Shown here one piece after another: positions 21,814-33,510 of a stretch of 35,249 nucleotides of DNA. The notes under the pieces are model-generated. The model saw only the letters and a list, made by a program, of their open reading frames with translations, ran no database searches and was not told where the DNA came from. Positions within the stretch are counted from its first letter, which is position 1. Every line of letters starts with the position of its first letter. The position numbers were made by a program, and so were the translations under genes. The stretch is from contig JAENZL010000022.1 of NCBI GenBank assembly GCA_016841265.1, forward strand, positions 23,867 through 59,115. The letters run 5' to 3'. Origin of the DNA: Methanobacteriota archaeon. GTDB taxonomy: Archaea; Halobacteriota; Methanosarcinia; Methanosarcinales; Methanosarcinaceae.

Positions 21814-21990
21814 CATTTTTGAAGGGACTGTAACCCGTTTTCAGTTTACTCATGTCACCTGATCCCGAAAACCTTTTTTATCCCCATAATAGATCGGCTT
21901 TGTAGAAAACCGATCTAAATCAACCCGGATAGAGTAGCAGTAATTCCACCATTCAGCATTCCTGAAAACCTTTTTTCGATTTGTTTTTTA

Positions 21991-22031
21991 GGTACCGGCG
22001 TTCTCACCGGTCGTCGAAGACGACCGGCTTT
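21991..22031. repeat. GGTACCGGC stem-loop element, copy 1
   Basis: Starts GGTACCGGCGTTCTCACC and ends in a 9-bp hairpin CCGGTCGTC-GAA-GACGACCGG followed by CTTTT. A second copy at 33358-33399 has the same frame, but the inner stem differs by compensating changes. The T-run could make it a terminator for the SUMF1 gene, 180 bases upstream. Confidence 0.75.
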
Positions 22032-22202
22032 TCCAGGAAGTATATTTAAATGAATGAAAATAGTATGAAAGTTATCAAACAAATATGTCCGGATAATTTA
22101 AAAATCAGAATATTGACATGAAGGTGTGTTTTGTGTACTTTCATTTTTTGTGCCTGTTGTTCTGAGGATTTTATGTGTGTTTTTTCAGAAATTTTGGGAA
22201 GG

Positions 22203-22308
22203 CCGCTTGCTTACGCAAGCGGTGAGGGCCCTGGAAATCGATACCGGGACAGAAACAAGCAAAATTGGAATTACCATTAAGCCCTGAACCTTGTCATAAA
22301 CCAGGGCC
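22203..22308 (+). ncRNA. Structured element, copy 1 (hairpin plus long-range stem)
   Basis: An 8-bp hairpin CCGCTTGC-TTAC-GCAAGCGG (22203-22222) is followed by GTGAG and a long-range stem GGCCCTGG (22227-22234) with CCAGGGCC (22301-22308). A T-rich run TTTCTTTTTT follows. An inner helix ACAAG/CTTGT (22255-22259, 22290-22294) is possible. A second copy at 28268-28361 keeps the plan and the phrase GCGGTGAGGGCCC while stem bases covary. It may be an RNA or a terminator-like element. Strand is assumed from the T-run. Confidence 0.55.
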
Positions 22309-22396
22309 TTTCTTTTTTCCGGAAACGGACACGTGCGTGTTATCAGAAGCCATGGGCAGGTACTTAAGCCGAAAATACTAATTTAATAACAAGGGA

Positions 22397-22436
22397 ATGC
22401 AATACCAGGAAAATGCAATACGAGGGGATGTAATAC
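22397..22436 (+). repeat. ATG(C/T)AATAC repeats before the CDGSH gene
   Basis: ATGCAATAC, ATGCAATAC and ATGTAATAC occur at 22397, 22413 and 22428, about 16 bases apart, each preceded by G/A-rich sequence that could act as a ribosome binding site. The genuine ATG is at 22450. Probably a small decayed tandem array in the leader. Confidence 0.6.
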
Positions 22437-22449
22437 AGGGGATGAACAA

Positions 22450-23097
22450 ATGGTTTCAGAAAGCGAAGAAAAGAAACCTTTAATAAAAGTAATAAAAGAT
22501 GGGCCGTACCTTGTCAGGGACCTGAAGAACTTCAGGAATTCAAAAAGCGAATCCATTGAAACAAAGCCGTCAATGGCCCTTTGCAGATGCGGAAAGTCAG
22601 AAAACAAACCCTTTTGTGACGGAGCTCACTCAAAGATTGGGTTTTCAGGAGAAAAAGAAGAAGAACGGGCGCCTGATAGAGTAAAAGATTACAAAGGCGA
22701 GAAGATCACAATCCATTATAACAGGGGAGTCTGCGCCCACGCCGAATCCTGCGTTAAAGACGAATCTTCCGTTTTCAGGGTAGACAGAAAGCCCTGGATC
22801 GACCCGGACGCTGCGGATCCTGAAGAAATTGAAGAGATTGTCCGGAACTGCCCGTCGGGAGCCCTGAGCTGTTCCAGAGACGGGGTGCCGTATGAAGACG
22901 AAACCCCCCCTCCTGAAATTACTGTTTGCAAGGACAGTTTCTACAAAGTTGTCGGAAATATCGAACTGGAAGACCCTGACGGTTCGGTCCCGCAATCAAA
23001 AGAGCATTACACGCTCTGCCGCTGCGGAGCTTCAAAAAACAAGCCGTTTTGTGACGGGTCGCACTGGAAGATCAAATTCAAGGATGAAAAGAACTGA
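22450..23097 (+). CDS. CDGSH iron-sulfur protein with central ferredoxin-like domain
   Basis: A 215-residue protein with three cluster-binding regions. Residues 40-63 carry a CDGSH-type motif (C45, C47, C56, H60 in CRCGKSENKPFCDGAH); residues 80-150 resemble the divergent 4Fe-4S domain Fer4_19 (GVCAHAESCV, then RNCPSGALSC); residues 188-207 hold a second CDGSH motif (C190, C192, C201, H205). CDGSH domains bind a labile 2Fe-2S cluster with three Cys and one His; both motifs here are complete. Such fused proteins are known in methanogens and bacteria, probably as electron carriers or cluster donors. No neighbours in an operon. ATG 22450 is weakly supported by GGGG about ten bases ahead. Confidence 0.9.
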   Translation: MVSESEEKKPLIKVIKDGPYLVRDLKNFRNSKSESIETKPSMALCRCGKSENKPFCDGAHSKIGFSGEKEEERAPDRVKDYKGEKITIHYNRGVCAHAESCVKDESSVFRVDRKPWIDPDAADPEEIEEIVRNCPSGALSCSRDGVPYEDETPPPEITVCKDSFYKVVGNIELEDPDGSVPQSKEHYTLCRCGASKNKPFCDGSHWKIKFKDEKN

Positions 23098-23178
23098 TCA
23101 GGCAGAGGTCCGGAGTGAGATACAGGGTGAGATCCGGGGTAATTTTGCCTATTCCTATTTTTAATTCCAGATATCTTT

Positions 23179-23284
23179 ATACACAATAATTAACAAATAT
23201 GATTATCATAACGATATAAGTTGTAAAATTGGATGCGTATAATATTCTACACAAAAATAGCTAAAATTGATAATTATTGTGTAT
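23179..23284. promoter_or_regulatory. Inverted-repeat operator of the abiE operon
   Basis: ATACACAATAATTA (23179-23192) and TAATTATTGTGTAT (23271-23284) are perfect 14-bp inverted repeats 78 bases apart. A TATA-like CGTATAATATT lies between them at about 23236-23246, and the right arm ends four bases before ATG 23289. Bacterial AbiEi antitoxins are known to repress their operon by binding inverted repeats around the promoter, so this pair is the likely binding region. Confidence 0.7.
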
Positions 23285-23288
23285 TGCT

Positions 23289-24053
23289 ATGAGTGAAAAG
23301 TTCAAAATTCTCAACGCTCTCATGCGGAAGGGCCCCATTTTTACTTTCGAAGATGCACAAAAAGTCAGCGGTTTGAAGCAGGAAAGCTTACGGGTACTTT
23401 TGAGCAGGATGGAAAAGGAAGGCTGGATCGAGCGCATAGAAAGGGGAAAGTATCTCATAATCCCGCTGGGAGCAGAAAAAGGCAAACATACCGTACATGA
23501 GTTTGTGATTGCTTCCGCACTCATTGAGCCTGCGGTTATTTCATACTGGAGTTCCCTTAACTACCACGGTTTGACGGAGCAGATTCCCGGGACGGTTTTT
23601 ATTCAGAGTACGGGCAGGAAGAACAGGCAGGAACTTGAGGTCTTCGGGGTAAGATACAAAATAATCAGGGTTAAGGAGGAGAAGCTTTTCGGGATTGAAA
23701 GGGTATGGATCGAGGGAAACCTTGTCCTTATCACCGACCCAGAGAAAACAATCGTTGATTGTCTTGAGAATCCTAAATACTGTGGGGGGATCATTGAGGT
23801 TGCAAAAGCCTTGGAAGAAGATATCAATATTGAAAGAGTGCTGGAATATGCAAAGAGGACAGGGAACTCTGCGGTAATCAAAAGGCTTGGCTATCTTTGC
23901 GAACAGCTTGGAATTTCGATCAAAATCCCGGAAGAGCACATCGCAAAAGGCTATCCTCTCCTTGATCCTTCCGCGAAAGATGGAGGACATTTTAACAGAA
24001 GATGGAAAATCCTTAATAATCTGGATGAAGGCATGCTTGAGGTTCTGGAATGA
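23289..24053 (+). CDS. AbiEi antitoxin, transcriptional autoregulator
   Basis: A 254-residue protein from ATG 23289 (an in-frame GTG at 23277 lies inside the operator arm). Residues 3-65 form a winged helix (FKILNALMRKGPIFTFEDAQ, then LKQESLRVLLSRMEKEGWIE, then GKYLIIPLGAEKG). The rest has the AbiEi core: HEFVIASALIEPAVISYWSS, LNYHGLTEQIP, VLITDPEKTIVDCLENPKYC. In type IV systems this protein neutralises the toxin without binding it, and represses the operon. Its stop overlaps the AbiEii start by four bases (ATGA), typical of the pair. The whole pair is a plausible defence or plasmid-addiction module acquired by transfer. Confidence 0.9.
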   Translation: MSEKFKILNALMRKGPIFTFEDAQKVSGLKQESLRVLLSRMEKEGWIERIERGKYLIIPLGAEKGKHTVHEFVIASALIEPAVISYWSSLNYHGLTEQIPGTVFIQSTGRKNRQELEVFGVRYKIIRVKEEKLFGIERVWIEGNLVLITDPEKTIVDCLENPKYCGGIIEVAKALEEDINIERVLEYAKRTGNSAVIKRLGYLCEQLGISIKIPEEHIAKGYPLLDPSAKDGGHFNRRWKILNNLDEGMLEVLE

Positions 24054-24853
24054 TCCGGGATTTTGAAATTAAGGAAAAAGCGAGGATTTTTGAGATTCCC
24101 GAATCCACCATAGAAAAAGATTATGCTCTCGGATGGATACTAAGATCCCTCTACCAGCAAACAGATGTACTTGTGCTTAAAGGTGGAACCGGAATACGCA
24201 AAGCATACATCGAAGATTTCCGTTTTTCCGAAGACCTTGACTTTACGGTTCTCGAACCTTATAGCGTGGAGAAACTTGAAAACATAATAAGAAATGCCCT
24301 ATCAAATGCAAATAAAGAGAGCGGGATCAACTTCAGTGATAGGATCAGGTCAAAAGAAAACATCAATGGTTACCAGATAGATGTGTATTTCAGGCTCCTT
24401 AGACAAAGCGGAACCAGCCCACTCAGGATCAAACTTGACATTACAAAATATGGAACCGAAAACCTTCTCCTGCCTCCCGTGAAAAGAAAACTCTTACATC
24501 TGTATTCAGACGAGTGTTCAGGGACTTTGCTGGTGTATTCAATGAATGAAATTGTGGCTGAGAAATTCCGCTCCCTATTTCAGCGCACCCGACCAAGGGA
24601 TCTTTATGATAGTTGGTATATCCCACAAAAGTTTGACATAAGTGATGCAGTAGAAATTTTTCCTCAAAAGTGCAGTACAAAGGATGTCAAACCAAACATA
24701 GAATCCCTTATTAAGCGAAAAGAAAACTTCGCTGGAGCCTGGAAAAGTTCACTTGGACATCAACTGAAAGACCTGCCTGATTTCGAACTGGTTTTTGGTG
24801 AAGTTGTCGAGTTTTTAAGAACTTTTGTCAACTCCTCAAATGATACAGATTAA
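24050..24853 (+). CDS. AbiEii nucleotidyltransferase toxin
   Basis: A 267-residue protein of the AbiEii/AbiGii nucleotidyltransferase fold. The conserved motifs are present: KGGTGIRKAYIEDFRFSEDL with the DLDF metal-binding pair near residues 63-66, LRIKLDITKY in the middle, and MNEIVAEKFRSLFQRTRPRD followed by LYDSWYI. These toxins transfer nucleotides to tRNA acceptor ends or other targets and stop growth; the preferred target here is unknown. The protein appears full length and its catalytic residues intact, so I infer a functional toxin. It directly follows the antitoxin gene. The GG-T-x-L-x-K motif has I in place of L (GTGIRKA), a mild variation. Confidence 0.9.
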   Translation: MIRDFEIKEKARIFEIPESTIEKDYALGWILRSLYQQTDVLVLKGGTGIRKAYIEDFRFSEDLDFTVLEPYSVEKLENIIRNALSNANKESGINFSDRIRSKENINGYQIDVYFRLLRQSGTSPLRIKLDITKYGTENLLLPPVKRKLLHLYSDECSGTLLVYSMNEIVAEKFRSLFQRTRPRDLYDSWYIPQKFDISDAVEIFPQKCSTKDVKPNIESLIKRKENFAGAWKSSLGHQLKDLPDFELVFGEVVEFLRTFVNSSNDTD

Positions 24854-25043
24854 ATTTTTAAGGTGATTCTGCCCATTATAACAAAATACATGAAAATAAA
24901 CAAAAATGATAATTTGTACGTATTAAAATAAACAAGTCAAAATTTACCTTCTTCCACTTTTTCCCTGACAAATAAACTCCCAGATAAACAACCCCAACAA
25001 TTCCCACATAAATTTCTATATAACCTCAATTCACACAGTGGCA

Positions 25044-26333
25044 CTATTTAGACCTTATTACTTTCTTACTTAATCCTCTCTTTTTCTTCACACCCCTCCA
25101 GTATCCCACTCCCACCAGCAGAAGCGGATAAACTACCCACCAGCTGAAACCCGAGACCAGGAAGGAAAGCGACACAAGCGAAAGCCCCGTAAAAACCCAC
25201 CGCTTCCACCCGGTTTCAAGCTTCCAGTACGAAAGCACCACAAAAGCGTAGAGGAAGACGAAGTTCTGGTTCACGATGAGCACCATGGCTGAAATCGGGA
25301 CTTTGAAAACGTAGGTCGCAGCGATCAGGATAAGGGAAACTGCATAAAGAACAAACAGAGCCGTGACCGGGATCGCCCTTCCTGAGAGCTTTCCCAGGGA
25401 TGCGGGGAAAATCCCCTCGTTTGCAGCGGAGTAAAGTAAACGGCTGGCTGTGAAATTCCAGGAACTTGCGTTTGCTACCAGGACGATTACGATCAGCAAA
25501 AGAAGCAGGTTCCCGCCCGGGGTTAGCTCAACCAGGCCTGCAAGGCCGGAAGCCCCTTTCAGAGAAACTCCGCTTACTTCAGCCCCGGCTGTCGTAAAGG
25601 CAAGCAGGAGGTAGATGAAGACCACCGCGGCAAAACTCAGCCAGTAGACCCTTGGCACGTTTTTTTCCGGGGATTCCAGTTCCCCGAGGGAGAAGGAAAA
25701 ACTGCCCCAGCCCAGGAAAGCCCAGAAGAGGAGCGCTGCGATTTTCCAGAGGTTTTCGAATTCCACGCTGCCTTCCCCGGAAAGAGTTTCAGGGAGGAGG
25801 GAGAGACCGGTGACAAAAAAGTCCAGGTTAAAAACGGAAATCACAAGGAGCAGAAGGACCAGGACCATCAGGGCTGCGTAGTTGACGAGCGAAACTGCCC
25901 GGACGCCTGCAAGGTTGAAAAGGGTCATTGTCGTTACAATGAGCACGGCGAGAAACGGAACGTAATCAAAGGGCAGGGAAAAGAGGCGCTGAACATACTC
26001 AGCCCCGATAAGAGTGAGAGCAGGGATTCCGGGAACCGAGCCAAAGACCAGGTAGGCAACTGCATAGCCGCCCCAGGGGCCGACTGCTGCTTCGGCGTAG
26101 CGGGCAAGGCCTGCACTTGTCGGGAATTTCAGGCCGAGGGTCGCAAAGATCCGGATCAAAGGAAAGACTGCCAGGGAAATCAAAATCCAGCCCAGAACAG
26201 CCTCATAGGGGTTCCCGATTTCCAGGACCAGGCCCGGGAGTCCGAGAAGTCCGGAGCCTATAATCATGGAAACTGCAAGGGCAGCTCCTCTCCATAGTGT
26301 TATTTCTTTTCCAAGCCCGGGAACGGACGTAAT
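25044..26333 (-). CDS. APC-family amino-acid permease 1 (non-standard start)
   Basis: A permease with 11-12 membrane segments. The first canonical ATG (26267) lies in the middle of membrane segment 1, so the product would lack half of it. The frame continues upstream and reads TSVPGLGKEITLWRG, equivalent to the starts of permeases 2 and 3 (MTELGKTITLWRG and MTELKKTVTLGRG). No ATG, GTG or TTG lies between the in-frame stop and 26267, but GGAGGT stands before ATT (26331-26333) and ACG (26328-26330). I therefore extend the gene to 26333. Segment 1 has the APC motif IIGSGLLGLPG; segment 6 reads LLFWAFLGWGSFSFSLGELE. Substrate is unknown. Either a real unusual start or a mutated start codon. Confidence 0.8.
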   Translation of the reverse strand: MTSVPGLGKEITLWRGAALAVSMIIGSGLLGLPGLVLEIGNPYEAVLGWILISLAVFPLIRIFATLGLKFPTSAGLARYAEAAVGPWGGYAVAYLVFGSVPGIPALTLIGAEYVQRLFSLPFDYVPFLAVLIVTTMTLFNLAGVRAVSLVNYAALMVLVLLLLVISVFNLDFFVTGLSLLPETLSGEGSVEFENLWKIAALLFWAFLGWGSFSFSLGELESPEKNVPRVYWLSFAAVVFIYLLLAFTTAGAEVSGVSLKGASGLAGLVELTPGGNLLLLLIVIVLVANASSWNFTASRLLYSAANEGIFPASLGKLSGRAIPVTALFVLYAVSLILIAATYVFKVPISAMVLIVNQNFVFLYAFVVLSYWKLETGWKRWVFTGLSLVSLSFLVSGFSWWVVYPLLLVGVGYWRGVKKKRGLSKKVIRSK

Positions 26334-26491
26334 CTGACCTCCTTTATCCCCTTTCCCGATTTACACCATGATTTTTGTTTTCAGGCCTTAAAACACTGAT
26401 GTTTGGGCTTTGTAGAAACCTTTTGTTCAGTTGTAATTCTCAGGTAAATTAGTGCATAAAATCAGTATGTAGGGTACTTTAAGCAGGTTAT

Positions 26492-26963
26492 TTCAGAGTA
26501 TCCGTTGAAAGGACCAAACTTCAAGCACTGAGAGAAGAGATTAAAAAACTAAAATAGGCAACCACAGAGAGACAAGCAATAAAAGACGAATTCAAGACCA
26601 TCATAGAAGAAGAAAACCGGTAAATTCAACACGTCGATGAAACATTAAACATAAGTTATTTAAGTTCACTGCATTATCACGATGTTGGCACGGTAATGTC
26701 ATATGACAGCGAAAATATGAAAGAGCACAGGAAAATCTGAAAACCGATCCCGATTACAGAGAAAAGTTTAAGGAAGCTACAAGCAACGGCAGACAGCAAA
26801 ATTTGAAAAACAGTAACAAGAAACGACACAGAAAATTCTTAAAACACTTGATGAAAAATTCAAATCAATTGCAACAGGGCAAAATCCGGGATATGAAAAT
26901 GAGGTTGTATATAAAACTCGATATGTACGAGACCTAAATCATATGTGCGGTGTAGGTGAATGA
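26492..26963 (+). pseudogene. Decayed coiled-coil gene
   Basis: The stretch reads as a coiled-coil-like protein with several stops and frame changes. The first frame gives VERTKLQALREEIKKLK, a stop, ATTERQAIKDEFKTIIEEEN and another stop; another frame continues KYERAQENLKTDPDYREKFK; the last one reads QETTQKILKTLDEKFKSIAT and ends GVGE before TGA 26961-26963. The matching charged style across frames indicates one decayed gene. Its family is not recognised. It lies between permease 1 and an AT-rich gene, in a region that may have been inserted. The rest of the spacer (26334-26491) shows nothing. Confidence 0.6.
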
Positions 26964-26977
26964 TTGTTTATTGTGGT

Positions 26978-28015
26978 TTAGAAATCATTCAAATTTTTAC
27001 CATTACCCACAGGACGCCTAGTATGATTATTATGATTATGTGTGAGAGCATCTTTATTCAAAATTTCTATTATTTCATAACTCGCAGTTAAACGCTCATT
27101 TTTGTGGGTTATCATCCTGTATCTTGCTTCCATTATCGTTCCCACACTGCTGATGATTATTTCTTTTCGCAAAACTTTATACAGAAAGTTTTCATCCAAT
27201 ATTTTTACAGGAAAGTCATCGGGTTTATTTTTTATTCGTGGAGAGTCAACAAAACTCAGACGCCATCCATTCTGTTTTCCCTCAAAATTAGATTGTGTGA
27301 TTAAAAAAGAGTCGATATCTTCTTTTTCGTCAATAATATCTGTGTCTATGAGATGGAAATAACTTCTTTCCTCTCTTAATATTTTTTCCTGCTCCTTTCT
27401 ATCCACTAAAAAAGTAATGTCTGACATCTCTTCATCTTCAAGTGGTGAAACTACATTCGCGAATGCTTGTTGCATTTTTTTATTTTCATATAATTTAACT
27501 ATATTAACATTTACTACTATTGGATTGTCGCAACCTTCCACTGTTATTTCACAATTATCCACATCCAGTGATTTTTTCGTGAGGATTTTTTTACCTTTTG
27601 TTTGTTTATATAACCAGATAAGTGTTTGATTTTTATCTTTTTTTACATTGTTATCACTTTTATCAGCATCACTTTTGTCAGCACCACGTTTACAAGCGAC
27701 CACAAAACCTAAGATTGCGGTAACATCTGCAATCGTTCCAATGTTACCGGAATTAAAAACAGTTTGAATGAGGTGTGGAATATTATAGAAAGATGTGATA
27801 TCAATAATGAAAGATCCAGGTCTAAAAGAACCACGCACTTTTATAGATATTTTTGTATCAGAACTATTAAGAATTGAATTCGCCGTTTCTATTGCATTAG
27901 ACAACCCCAACAAAGAAGTTGCAACTGCATTAGCATCCATTTCGTTTGATTCAACGGCTTTACCGTTATATTTTACCGAAAAATCGATTAATTCTGACTT
28001 TTTTGAATCTTCCAT
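26978..28015 (-). CDS. AT-rich protein of unknown function
   Basis: A 345-residue soluble protein. It begins with a globular region (IDFSVKYNGKAVESNEMDAN, then AVATSLLGLSNAIETANSIL, then IKVRGSFRPGSFIIDITSF), followed by one hydrophobic helix (about 90-108), a lysine/aspartate-rich linker and a beta-rich C-terminal half. The opening part resembles a scattered family of hypothetical proteins of bacteria and phages (the FRPGSF motif after a helix), but I cannot name its function. It is visibly more AT-rich than the permeases around it, a sign of transfer. It is flanked by a decayed gene and a structured element and interrupts the permease array. ATG at 28013-28015; no strong ribosome binding site is seen. 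Confidence 0.75.
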   Translation of the reverse strand: MEDSKKSELIDFSVKYNGKAVESNEMDANAVATSLLGLSNAIETANSILNSSDTKISIKVRGSFRPGSFIIDITSFYNIPHLIQTVFNSGNIGTIADVTAILGFVVACKRGADKSDADKSDNNVKKDKNQTLIWLYKQTKGKKILTKKSLDVDNCEITVEGCDNPIVVNVNIVKLYENKKMQQAFANVVSPLEDEEMSDITFLVDRKEQEKILREERSYFHLIDTDIIDEKEDIDSFLITQSNFEGKQNGWRLSFVDSPRIKNKPDDFPVKILDENFLYKVLRKEIIISSVGTIMEARYRMITHKNERLTASYEIIEILNKDALTHNHNNHTRRPVGNGKNLNDF

Positions 28016-28267
28016 TACTTCTTAAAAATCATTGTGATCTATATTAAACTTTGGATTTTGTTCCAAATAATGTATAATCAGCGTTGAGGACACATCGAAG
28101 TAGTTTAACTATTAAATTTAAGTTAATGTAATGGCTTTCATGAAGGCTTTGCTTTCAGTACCGCTTTTTTCTCAACCACACACCAAAAGAATTGAGACGA
28201 AAAGTATATCGTGCCGTTAGACGCAATATACTTTGGAATTATTTATTCTCAGTTGTTATGGAAAAAG

Positions 28268-28361
28268 CCGCTTTCTTCGAAAGCGGTGAGGGCCCCGGAC
28301 ACGATATGAAGATCAAAACCTGACTTGAAATTAAATTTAAGCCAGGTCACAAAGCGGGGCC
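28268..28361 (+). ncRNA. Structured element, copy 2
   Basis: Hairpin CCGCTTTC-TTC-GAAAGCGG (28268-28286), GTGAG, then long-range stem GGCCCCG (28291-28297) with CGGGGCC (28355-28361). A middle helix ACCTGACTT/AAGCCAGGT (28318-28326, 28339-28347) has one mismatch. It matches the copy at 22203-22308 in plan and in the linker GCGGTGAGGGCCC; the stem bases differ but pairing is kept. The remaining 28016-28435 spacer holds no gene. Confidence 0.55.
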
Positions 28362-28435
28362 ATTTTGAGCAACATAACAGGATTTGTAGGGAGGCGATGT
28401 TTGGCTTTTAAGTTGCCTCTTCCGGTCAGTAGCAT

Positions 28436-29842
28436 TCAGTGCTGAAGCCCAACCGGCAGCTCACTTTCATCAGAGCTAACCACGTACTGCTTTTCTTTCC
28501 CAAGCAGCTTCCCCTTTTCGGAAACGGTCCACCTGTAGTATCCGAGCCCTATCAGGAAAATGGGGTAGACAATTTCCCAGGTGAAGCCCGAAACCAGAAA
28601 GGCAAGGGAAGCAAGGGAAAGCGCTGAAAAGACCCATTTCTGCCAGCCGGTTTCGGTTTTCCAGTAGGCAAGGATGATGAAGGCATAGAGGAAGACGAAG
28701 TTCTGGTTTACCAGCAGGATCAGGTCCGAGACCGAGATCCTGAAGACGTAAGCGGCCAGGACCAGGGCAAAAGATGAGACAAAAAGGACTGCAAGGGCGG
28801 GCACAGGGATGCCACGCACGGACAGTTTTCCCAGGCTTGCAGGGAAGATTCCGGTCCTGCCTCCGGAAAAGATCAGGCGGCTGGCGGTAAAGTTCCAGGA
28901 GCAGGCGTTTGCTGCGACCACTATGACCATGAACCAGACCAGAAGGTCTCCGCCCGGGGTGAAACGGACAAGGCCTGAAAGCCCGGCTGCGCCCTGGAGA
29001 GGGACTCCTGCTGCCTTGGCCCCCGCACTGATGAAGGCCAGGAGGAGGTAGATCGAGACCACCAGGACAAAGCTCAGCCAGTAGAGGCGGGGGACGTTTT
29101 TCTCAGGGTCCTTGATTTCCCCCAGGGAAAAGGAGAGGTTTTCCCAGCCCAGAAAAGCCCAGAAAAGGAGGGCTGCAATGCTCCAGAGGTGCTTCGGGTC
29201 CACGCTTGCTCCCACACCTGTACCTGCACCCGCAGTCGCACCCACACCTGTACCCATACCCGCAAATACACCCGCGCTCCCGTTCAAGCTCACTTTCAGA
29301 GCTTCCAGGGCAATTTCGAGCCCTGCAGAGAAAAAGTTCAGGTTGAAGAGGACAAGCAGGCCGATCAGCAGGAAGAGCACGGCCAGGGCTGCAAAGTTGA
29401 TAAGGGAAATGGCCCTTATGCCAGCCAGGTTTGAAAGGGTCATCAGGATTATGAGGAGGATTGCAAAAAAGGCAATACCCAGCTCCGAAAGGGGTATTAG
29501 CTGCCGTACGTATTCAGCCCCCACCAGGGCAACGGCGGGGAGTCCGAAGAGGAATGAGCCTGCGACCAGATAGGAAACCGCATACCCACCCCAGGGGCCG
29601 ACGGCTTCTTCGGCATAACGGGCAAGCCCGGCGGTGGAGGGGAATTTCAGGCCCAGGCGGGCGCAGATATGAATAAGGGGCAAGGCGACAAGAGAGATAA
29701 GCAGCCAGCCAAGGACTGCCTCATAGACATTTCCGGCATCAAGGGCCAGGCCGGGGAGCGCAAGGATGCCTGTTCCGATAAGCATGCAGATTGCAAGCCC
29801 GAGGCCCCGCCAGAGGGTTATTGTTTTTCCGAGTTCGGTCAT
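28436..29842 (-). CDS. APC-family amino-acid permease 2
   Basis: A 468-residue permease counted from ATG 29842; an ATG at 29872 would add ten residues (MKCEMYGDEK) not found in the sister proteins. About 12 membrane segments. Segment 1 carries LAICMLIGTGILALPGLAL, segment 6 ALLFWAFLGWENLSFSLGEI, as in the two neighbours. The loop before segment 6 is expanded with glycine/alanine/threonine repeats (GMGTGVGATAGAGTGVGAS) absent from the others; the DNA there repeats CCCACACCTGTACC at 29211 and 29241. Transport substrate is unknown, probably amino acids or related amines driven by ion gradients. Downstream of permease 3 by about 100 bases; the two may be co-transcribed. Confidence 0.88.
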   Translation of the reverse strand: MTELGKTITLWRGLGLAICMLIGTGILALPGLALDAGNVYEAVLGWLLISLVALPLIHICARLGLKFPSTAGLARYAEEAVGPWGGYAVSYLVAGSFLFGLPAVALVGAEYVRQLIPLSELGIAFFAILLIILMTLSNLAGIRAISLINFAALAVLFLLIGLLVLFNLNFFSAGLEIALEALKVSLNGSAGVFAGMGTGVGATAGAGTGVGASVDPKHLWSIAALLFWAFLGWENLSFSLGEIKDPEKNVPRLYWLSFVLVVSIYLLLAFISAGAKAAGVPLQGAAGLSGLVRFTPGGDLLVWFMVIVVAANACSWNFTASRLIFSGGRTGIFPASLGKLSVRGIPVPALAVLFVSSFALVLAAYVFRISVSDLILLVNQNFVFLYAFIILAYWKTETGWQKWVFSALSLASLAFLVSGFTWEIVYPIFLIGLGYYRWTVSEKGKLLGKEKQYVVSSDESELPVGLQH

Positions 29843-29943
29843 TTTTTCGTCGCCGTACATTTCACATTTCAATATATATTCTTTGGCCGGCTGAAATCAA
29901 GCATTATTTCCACTGGAAATCCATCAACGCATTGATAGGAACA

Positions 29944-31272
29944 TCAGGCAACACATCTCTCCTTTTCACGGTTTTCCCTTTCACGTTTTTGACGCCTGTT
30001 TTTCCTGATGAAACCGTAATAGCCAAGCCCGGTAAGGGCCACGGAATAGAGGATCTTCCAGGTAAAGCCTGAGACCAGGAAGGAGAGGGAGATCAGGGAA
30101 AGGGCTGAGTAGACCCAGCGTCTCCATCCGGTTTCGATCTTCCAGAAGGAAAGGAGGATGAAGCCGTAGAGGAAAAGAAAGTTCTGGTTTACGAGCATGA
30201 TCAGGGAAGAAATCGGGACCTTAAACAGCCAAGTTCCCAGGATCACCAGTACGAAGATTACGTACATGCTCAGAATGCTTGCAAGGGGCTGCCCGTGTTT
30301 TGAAAGCTTCCCGAGGTATGCGGGCAGCACTTTTTCTTTCCCGGCGGCGTAGAGGAGGCGGCTGGAGGCAAAGTTCCAGCAGGTCACGTTTGCCAGGATC
30401 ACGATTCCCATCAGCCAGATCAGCAGGTTCCCAGGAGGCGTGAATTTTACCAGTTCCACGAGTCCGGACGCTCCTGCAAGAGGGACTCCACTCGCATCCG
30501 CCCCAATACTCGTTATGGCCAGCATCAGGTAGATGAAGATTGTAAGGACAAAACTCAGCCAGAAAACCCGGGGCACGTTCTTTTTCGGATCCTGGAGCTC
30601 CCCGAGCCCGAAAGACATGTTTTCCCAGCCCAGGAAAGCCCAGAAGAGGAGAGCTGAGATTTTCCAGACATTATAAGGGTCAAGGGTTTCAAAATCCCCT
30701 CCTGCAATTGCGGATACACCTTCGGAAAGGGCTTCCATGGAAAATCCTACACCTGAGGCAAAGAATTCGAAGTTAAAGTAAGTAAGGGCTGCAATCAGGA
30801 AGAGGAGCACAACTACGGCTGCGTAATTGAAGAGCGAGACAAGCCTGACCCCGGCTATCGTGATGAGAGCCATGGCTGTGACTATAAGAATTGCAAGCAG
30901 GTAAACCCCGGATGGGGGAAGGTCAAAGAGGTGCTGCAGGTATTCCCCGCCGATAAGAGCTACCATAGGCTCTCCAAGCATAAAAGAGCCGCAAACGAGG
31001 GCTGTTACCGCATACCCTCCCCATTCTCCAACAGCTTCCCTGGCATAAAGGGAAATCCCTCCCGAGTACGGAAACTTCACCCCGAGCCTGGCACATATCT
31101 GGATCAGGGGCATTGTTGCGAGGATGATCAGGAGCCAGCCGTAGACCACTTCCTGCACTGTCCCGACGTCCGCCACAAGGCCCGGAAGGCCCAGCAGCCC
31201 GGAACCTATGACCATCAGCATGGCGAGCACCACACCGCGTCCGAGAGTTACTGTTTTTTTAAGTTCGGTCAT
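29944..31272 (-). CDS. APC-family amino-acid permease 3
   Basis: A 442-residue permease with about 12 membrane segments. ATG 31270-31272 has AAGGGATG before it. Segment 1 MLMVIGSGLLGLPGLVADVG and segment 6 LLFWAFLGWENMSFGLGEL are shared with its two neighbours. It ends in a lysine/arginine-rich tail (RKNRRQKRERENREKERC). Three similar permeases in a row indicate duplication within this lineage; their substrates may have diverged. It would be the first gene transcribed of the 2/3 pair. The spacer upstream holds a long inverted repeat and a 13-bp minisatellite. Confidence 0.9.
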   Translation of the reverse strand: MTELKKTVTLGRGVVLAMLMVIGSGLLGLPGLVADVGTVQEVVYGWLLIILATMPLIQICARLGVKFPYSGGISLYAREAVGEWGGYAVTALVCGSFMLGEPMVALIGGEYLQHLFDLPPSGVYLLAILIVTAMALITIAGVRLVSLFNYAAVVVLLFLIAALTYFNFEFFASGVGFSMEALSEGVSAIAGGDFETLDPYNVWKISALLFWAFLGWENMSFGLGELQDPKKNVPRVFWLSFVLTIFIYLMLAITSIGADASGVPLAGASGLVELVKFTPPGNLLIWLMGIVILANVTCWNFASSRLLYAAGKEKVLPAYLGKLSKHGQPLASILSMYVIFVLVILGTWLFKVPISSLIMLVNQNFLFLYGFILLSFWKIETGWRRWVYSALSLISLSFLVSGFTWKILYSVALTGLGYYGFIRKNRRQKRERENREKERCVA

Positions 31273-33131: not shown

Positions 33132-33357
33132 GGTATTTCTGTCCTTCCTTTTCGGTACTGCACTGGTAGCGAGTTATGATAGGGTTATGGGATATAGTAA
33201 CGGGAAATAAAACTTGATACACAGGATTGAATAACAAATTGGATAGTATGAAGGAGAAGTTTTGCTTCCGATGTTTAAAGAGTTTTCCAAATACCCCGAA
33301 AGTTCCCGCCAATTTATTGAGATCCCGCCCCCTGCTACGCTTCAGAAACCGAAGTCA

Positions 33358-33399
33358 GGTACCGGCACTCTCACCGGTCAGCTTGCTGACCGGTCTTTT
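33358..33399. repeat. GGTACCGGC stem-loop element, copy 2
   Basis: GGTACCGGCACTCTCACC followed by a 9-bp hairpin ACCGGTCAG-CTTG-CTGACCGGT and CTTTT. Same plan as 21991-22031 with compensating stem changes. It lies in the spacer 33132-33567, which has no gene. Confidence 0.75.
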
Positions 33400-33510
33400 C
33401 ATGAAAATGGAAAAGAAGATGAGCGAAAAACACAGACAAAACCTGCAAGTTATCATCCCCGCAGGAAAACACCGTAATCAAAGAGGCACAGGCAGAGATT
33501 AAGAGATTAG

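Follow-up and report, generated by a model that had tools for sequence, protein, structure and literature searches.

Among described systems, three come closest to the repeats reported here. REP and REPIN elements, which occur with RAYT transposases, resemble our cores in being short palindromes that lie between genes, keep their foot motif conserved, form inverted pairs, and reach tens to hundreds of copies. By contrast, REP tags at the hairpin foot read GTAG or CGTC (PMC3733652), whereas our cores are flanked by GTGAG and GGAAAA, show no link to Y1 transposases, and in their solo form are mostly old and orthologous. With MITEs, our elements share terminal inverted repeats, 8-bp target duplications, the lack of an ORF, a length of 120–600 bp, and many decayed copies, but they differ in that both of their divergent arms are structured, and the cores of these arms are found as dozens of solo copies as well. 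Finally, sRNA162 of Methanosarcina is likewise intergenic and structured, but it is a characterised transcribed RNA (PMC3510493), whereas the elements here are dispersed repeats known from DNA sequence.

The window, a 35,249-nt stretch of a Methanosarcinaceae genome, had been examined in a sequence-only reading that picked out two dispersed elements with covarying stems and suggested inspecting small-RNA data for a transcript of about 100 bases. Both copies are where that reading placed them, and their alignment reveals a hairpin, GTGAG, and both ends of a long-range stem in common (Table 1). The folding of both copies beats 200 of 200 dinucleotide shuffles, with z-scores of −3.4 for copy 1 and −4.1 for copy 2. 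Both elements are real, but they do not form an isolated pair of RNA genes: the genome holds 55 copies. Two further elements in the window had been missed, namely module B beside copy 1 and a solo core farther downstream, both on the minus strand.

Table 1. Positions of the palindromic elements and associated repeats within the window.
Feature	Position	Strand	Basis
Copy 1, module A (right arm)	22194-22316	+	sequence; R1 102.3 bits
Copy 1 hairpin, CCGCTTGC-TTAC-GCAAGCGG	22203-22222	+	sequence
Copy 1 GTGAG	22222-22226	+	sequence
Copy 1 long-range stem, GGCCCTGG x CCAGGGCC	22227-22234 x 22301-22308	+	sequence
T-rich stretch at the place of the missing right terminal repeat, copy 1	22309-22319	+	sequence
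Left terminal inverted repeat of the MITE carrying copy 1, GGCTTTGTAGAAAACC	21896-21911	+	exact match, G000:C17:45762-45777
Module B (divergent left arm)	21914-22036; core 21976-22041	-	R1 27.5 bits, R2 65.7 bits
Module B palindrome, CCGGTCGTC-GAA-GACGACCGG	22007-22027	-	covariance model matches
Copy 2, module A	28259-28369	+	sequence; R1 101.7 bits
Copy 2 hairpin, CCGCTTTC-TTC-GAAAGCGG	28268-28286	+	sequence
Copy 2 GTGAG	28286-28290	+	sequence
Copy 2 long-range stem, GGCCCCG x CGGGGCC	28291-28297 x 28355-28361	+	sequence
Decayed right terminal repeat of copy 2, GGATTTGTAGGGAGGC	28380-28395	+	4 mismatches to GATTTCTACAGAGCC, usual distance
Solo hairpin core without terminal repeat, CCGGTCAGC-AA-GCTGACCGG	33345-33407	-	R2 42.8 bits; sequence

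Copy 1 has orthologs in three other genomes, and copy 2 has orthologs in two congeners (G001 and G003) and in a genome of another genus (G096). The repeat to the left of copy 1 elsewhere bounds elements with 8-bp target duplications, and a search for its right-hand partner found none. Arm B is absent beside copy 2, but it is kept in the G001, G003, and G096 orthologs. Copy 1 is arm A of a MITE whose right end is gone, and copy 2 is a decayed arm A. An unusual upstream stretch (CTTTCATTT, TTTGTGCCTGTT) is common to copy 1 (22130-22193) and G001:1713459 (L233 upstream of 3965), where it replaces the usual arm-A upstream sequence in mosaic-like fashion. Among the neighboring genes, an AbiEi/AbiEii type IV toxin-antitoxin pair (23277-24853) lies directly 3′ of the CDGSH iron-sulfur gene adjoining copy 1, and copy 2 adjoins the middle one of three amino acid permease paralogs, all on the minus strand (25044-26267, 28436-29872, and 29944-31272).

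BLAST detected dispersed relatives in all four genomes available for the genus. Covariance-model searches, which the sequence-only reading had suggested, returned further copies and placed both elements in one structured family. A model built from 29 copies (R1) detected more copies, including some in other genera, and its weak matches proved to be real relatives with the core [T-rich]-GGAAAAGsCCG-hairpin-CGGTGAGaGCnCCGGTACCTGAAAA. In arm A, TTTATTTT stands ~30 nt upstream. The core consensus is (T)GGAAAAGsCCG-hairpin-CGGTGAGaGC. Per-genome counts come from a second model of the hairpin core (R2), whereas context and orthology rest on copies among the matches listed. In addition to the 55 copies in this genome, R2 counted 92 (G001), 39, and 73 (G003) in three congeners and 105 and 19 in two further relatives. 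Most other searched genomes of the sister genus g13, which we take to be Methanosarcina, held 1–9 each, and ten genomes of further genera held zero. Neither element matched an Rfam family at the gathering score or at E 1, and a literature search found no description of the palindrome family, which is not proof of novelty. In G001, 43 of the 58 distinct copies among the matches listed fall within 1.47–2.46 Mb of the chromosome (24% of its length), a region picked post hoc where the genome may be plastic. Tandemly duplicated cores ~270 and 427 bp apart occur in G001, G002, and G003 (L243 4249-4640, L425, L414). A subclass of solo cores (e.g., L372, L389, L403) has a central C-C stem mismatch (GGCTGC/GCACCC, GGCCGCC/GGCGCCC), which recalls REPs, whose stems are imperfect too.

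Upstream of strong arm-A copies, at a distance of 160–400 bp, the opposite strand often carries a divergent arm B. Together, the two divergent hairpin arms form a MITE of 0.3–0.6 kb with outer 16-bp terminal inverted repeats, GGCTYTGTAGAAANCC. Target duplications of 8 bp are perfect at L278 (437 bp), L276, and L302 and match at 7 of 8 positions at L273, L275, L281, and L301, and no ORF of at least 120 aa was found inside elements with such duplications. In one case we also found the empty orthologous site, where G003 (L413) has ~18 nt in place of the 318 bp of the L275 element (G000:C66). The terminal repeat was present with at most 3 mismatches in 21 of 93 copies examined, nearly all at a fixed distance, compared with 0 of 93 for a reversed-motif control. 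About a quarter of the surveyed copies are MITE arms, while 64 of the 93 lack the terminal repeat and are solo palindromes. Far shorter MITEs (120–132 bp) with the same terminal repeats were seen at L276, L302, L286, L299, and L312, two of them with perfect 8-bp duplications. In a further difference from described MITEs, no autonomous element, parent transposon, or insertion sequence with GGCTYTGTAGAAANCC ends was found at scanned repeat sites. An IS6 parent was considered and rejected, as no IS6 transposase scored above the cut-off in the genus, and IS6-type ends, where found (GGTTCCGTTGCAAA, L328), differ.

Covariation of the hairpin, which had been noticed between the two copies in the window, was borne out far above chance and even between orthologous loci. 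In a set of 49 diverse copies, pairing holds for 95.5% of the stem cells, and both sides changed in 71 cells, compared with 24.7 in shuffles and 6–24 in slid controls. The same claim for the long-range stem is weakly supported. Only copies of the arm-A subset have this stem, and there it is 84.5% paired with 7 double-change cells (up to 4 in slid controls). Its further pair types fall below shuffles, and its support is mainly one double change (columns 39/117) common to related copies.

Concluding from the covariation that an RNA of about 100 bases is under selection found no support. Most copies share only a ~60-nt core of hairpin and flanks, and stem changes skip G-U. The 1,086 stem pairs comprise 1,035 Watson-Crick, 4 G-U, and 3 A-C pairs. 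Selection on RNA would often route pairs through G-U, and because G-U is about as frequent as A-C, its equivalent on DNA, the covariation is no proof of RNA. Loops also invert between orthologs, exactly so for TTC/GAA (G001:1695537 vs. G096:4948) and again for AAA/TTT (G001_1865 vs. G074, the latter presumably M. acetivorans). Three orthologous loci, one of them the arm B that accompanies copy 1, have swapped the tip cassettes GTCGTC-TTC-GACGAC and GTCAGC-AA-GCTGAC, and between G001:2966506 and G003:C118 two adjacent pairs changed jointly. Template switching within palindromes yields multi-base compensatory changes and loop inversions (PMC8794818). The scarcity of G-U intermediates, the loop flips, and the unit-wise tip switches fit what such switching on DNA would leave behind. 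Covariation here does not establish RNA selection; this argues against RNA as a necessary cause and not against RNA itself. At the foot of the hairpin, one G-T pair hardly varies, and in an RNA read from the plus strand it could be a G-U pair.

To assess constraint, we took 182 copies with flanks from among the matches listed and obtained 57 cross-genome pairs that are orthologous by both flanks, indicating vertical retention at these loci. Within these pairs, the hairpin had diverged by 6.5%, GGAAAAG by 7.1%, and TGAGAGCnCC by 7.9%, whereas neighboring intergenic bins were mostly 15–22% divergent. Taken as a whole, the ~45-nt core diverges by 6.5–8%, about threefold less than the 18–22% found next to it. 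Because core divergence lies below that of neighboring bins at orthologous loci, the core is constrained locus by locus. This argument is statistical, and individual copies have decayed freely despite the constraint (e.g., G003:C115). Core identity is 92% between orthologs and 76% between paralogs, both within and between genomes, and gene conversion homogenising all copies was rejected because orthologs are closer than paralogs. Still, the conservation is not fully separable from biased conversion, and a transcribed core acting as RNA would be expected to show the same constraint equally well.

The account that we consider probable, although well short of certain, is that these are extragenic DNA palindromes operating in the manner of bacterial REP sequences, part of which spread within a MITE as its two divergent arms, A and B. 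Mobility of the MITE would presumably be due to a transposase of the DDE type that duplicates 8 bp of its target, with the remaining copies persisting as solo palindromes. Hairpin arms may copy each other by template switching at the DNA hairpin, such that the stem stays perfect while the tip changes. A host protein that binds the hairpin and its conserved flanks on DNA would explain the core constraint, and a bound DNA hairpin is the identity of the core that we favor. On a bolder reading, which we put forward tentatively and consider rather doubtful, the solo cores would be a domesticated regulatory element derived from mobile-element arms and active at dozens of loci across these archaea, perhaps as a DNA cruciform to which a protein binds, or else as RNA of a new class.

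Readings that place the function in RNA draw on some of the same observations. Trans-acting small RNAs of ~60–120 nt, each with a promoter of its own, would extend the idea of a ~100-base transcript in the sequence-only reading and would account for a strong hairpin with conserved single-stranded flanks, the constraint at orthologous loci, the G-U pair fixed at the stem foot, and the T-rich stretch that closes copy 1 after the long-range stem. We nevertheless consider them unlikely, because the region upstream of 62 solo copies is T-rich but has no TATA-like column block, the 3′ end is not fixed, the long-range stem is weak and confined to arm A, G-U is no commoner in the stem than A-C, and Rfam gives no match even at E 1. 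Quite unlikely as well is an RNA element that acts in cis from the untranslated regions, 3′ or 5′, serving, for example, mRNA end formation or stability. Copies among the matches listed are mostly intergenic, lying between convergent (26), tandem (43), or divergent (11) genes as defined by simple longest-ORF calls, and copy 2 follows a permease gene (28436-29872, minus strand) at 75 nt from its stop codon, in line with such a role. However, copies occur in both orientations relative to neighboring genes and at widely varying distances, and tolerated insertions would give a convergent excess too. No neighboring gene or gene family recurs around the copies, and a cis-regulator of one gene family was rejected for this reason.

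Two further readings fare much worse. That the palindromes are dispersed between genes in 40–105 copies, have conserved foot motifs, and form inverted pairs would suit true REP elements that depend for mobilisation on a RAYT, a Y1 tyrosine transposase. Yet copy number does not track Y1, as no Y1 domain occurs in G003 (73 copies), one partial Y1 occurs in G001 (92 copies), and 79 Y1 matches occur in G083, which holds 5 copies. Moreover, no core lies near 30 Y1 loci, and the foot motif is GTGAG rather than GTAG or CGTC, leaving RAYT mobilisation largely refuted and very improbable. The Y1 matches in G083, a genome of g13, represent an IS200/IS605-type burst. As for a short peptide whose start codon would be the GTG within GGTGAG, the reading frame stays open for at least 30 codons in some copies, but codon positions are equally variable in solo copies (1.33, 1.32, and 1.43 bits), and many copies contain frameshifts and early stops. 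We rejected this reading, which can hardly be correct.

These results call for caution, as covariation is commonly read as proof of RNA structure but can arise from DNA template switching. Counting G-U against A-C mismatches and looking for loop inversion between orthologs is a simple test that helps separate an RNA from a DNA cause and can be reused elsewhere. With this family, archaea gain REP-like palindromes that have a core in common with the arms of a MITE, do without the usual tyrosine transposase, and are constrained at individual loci.
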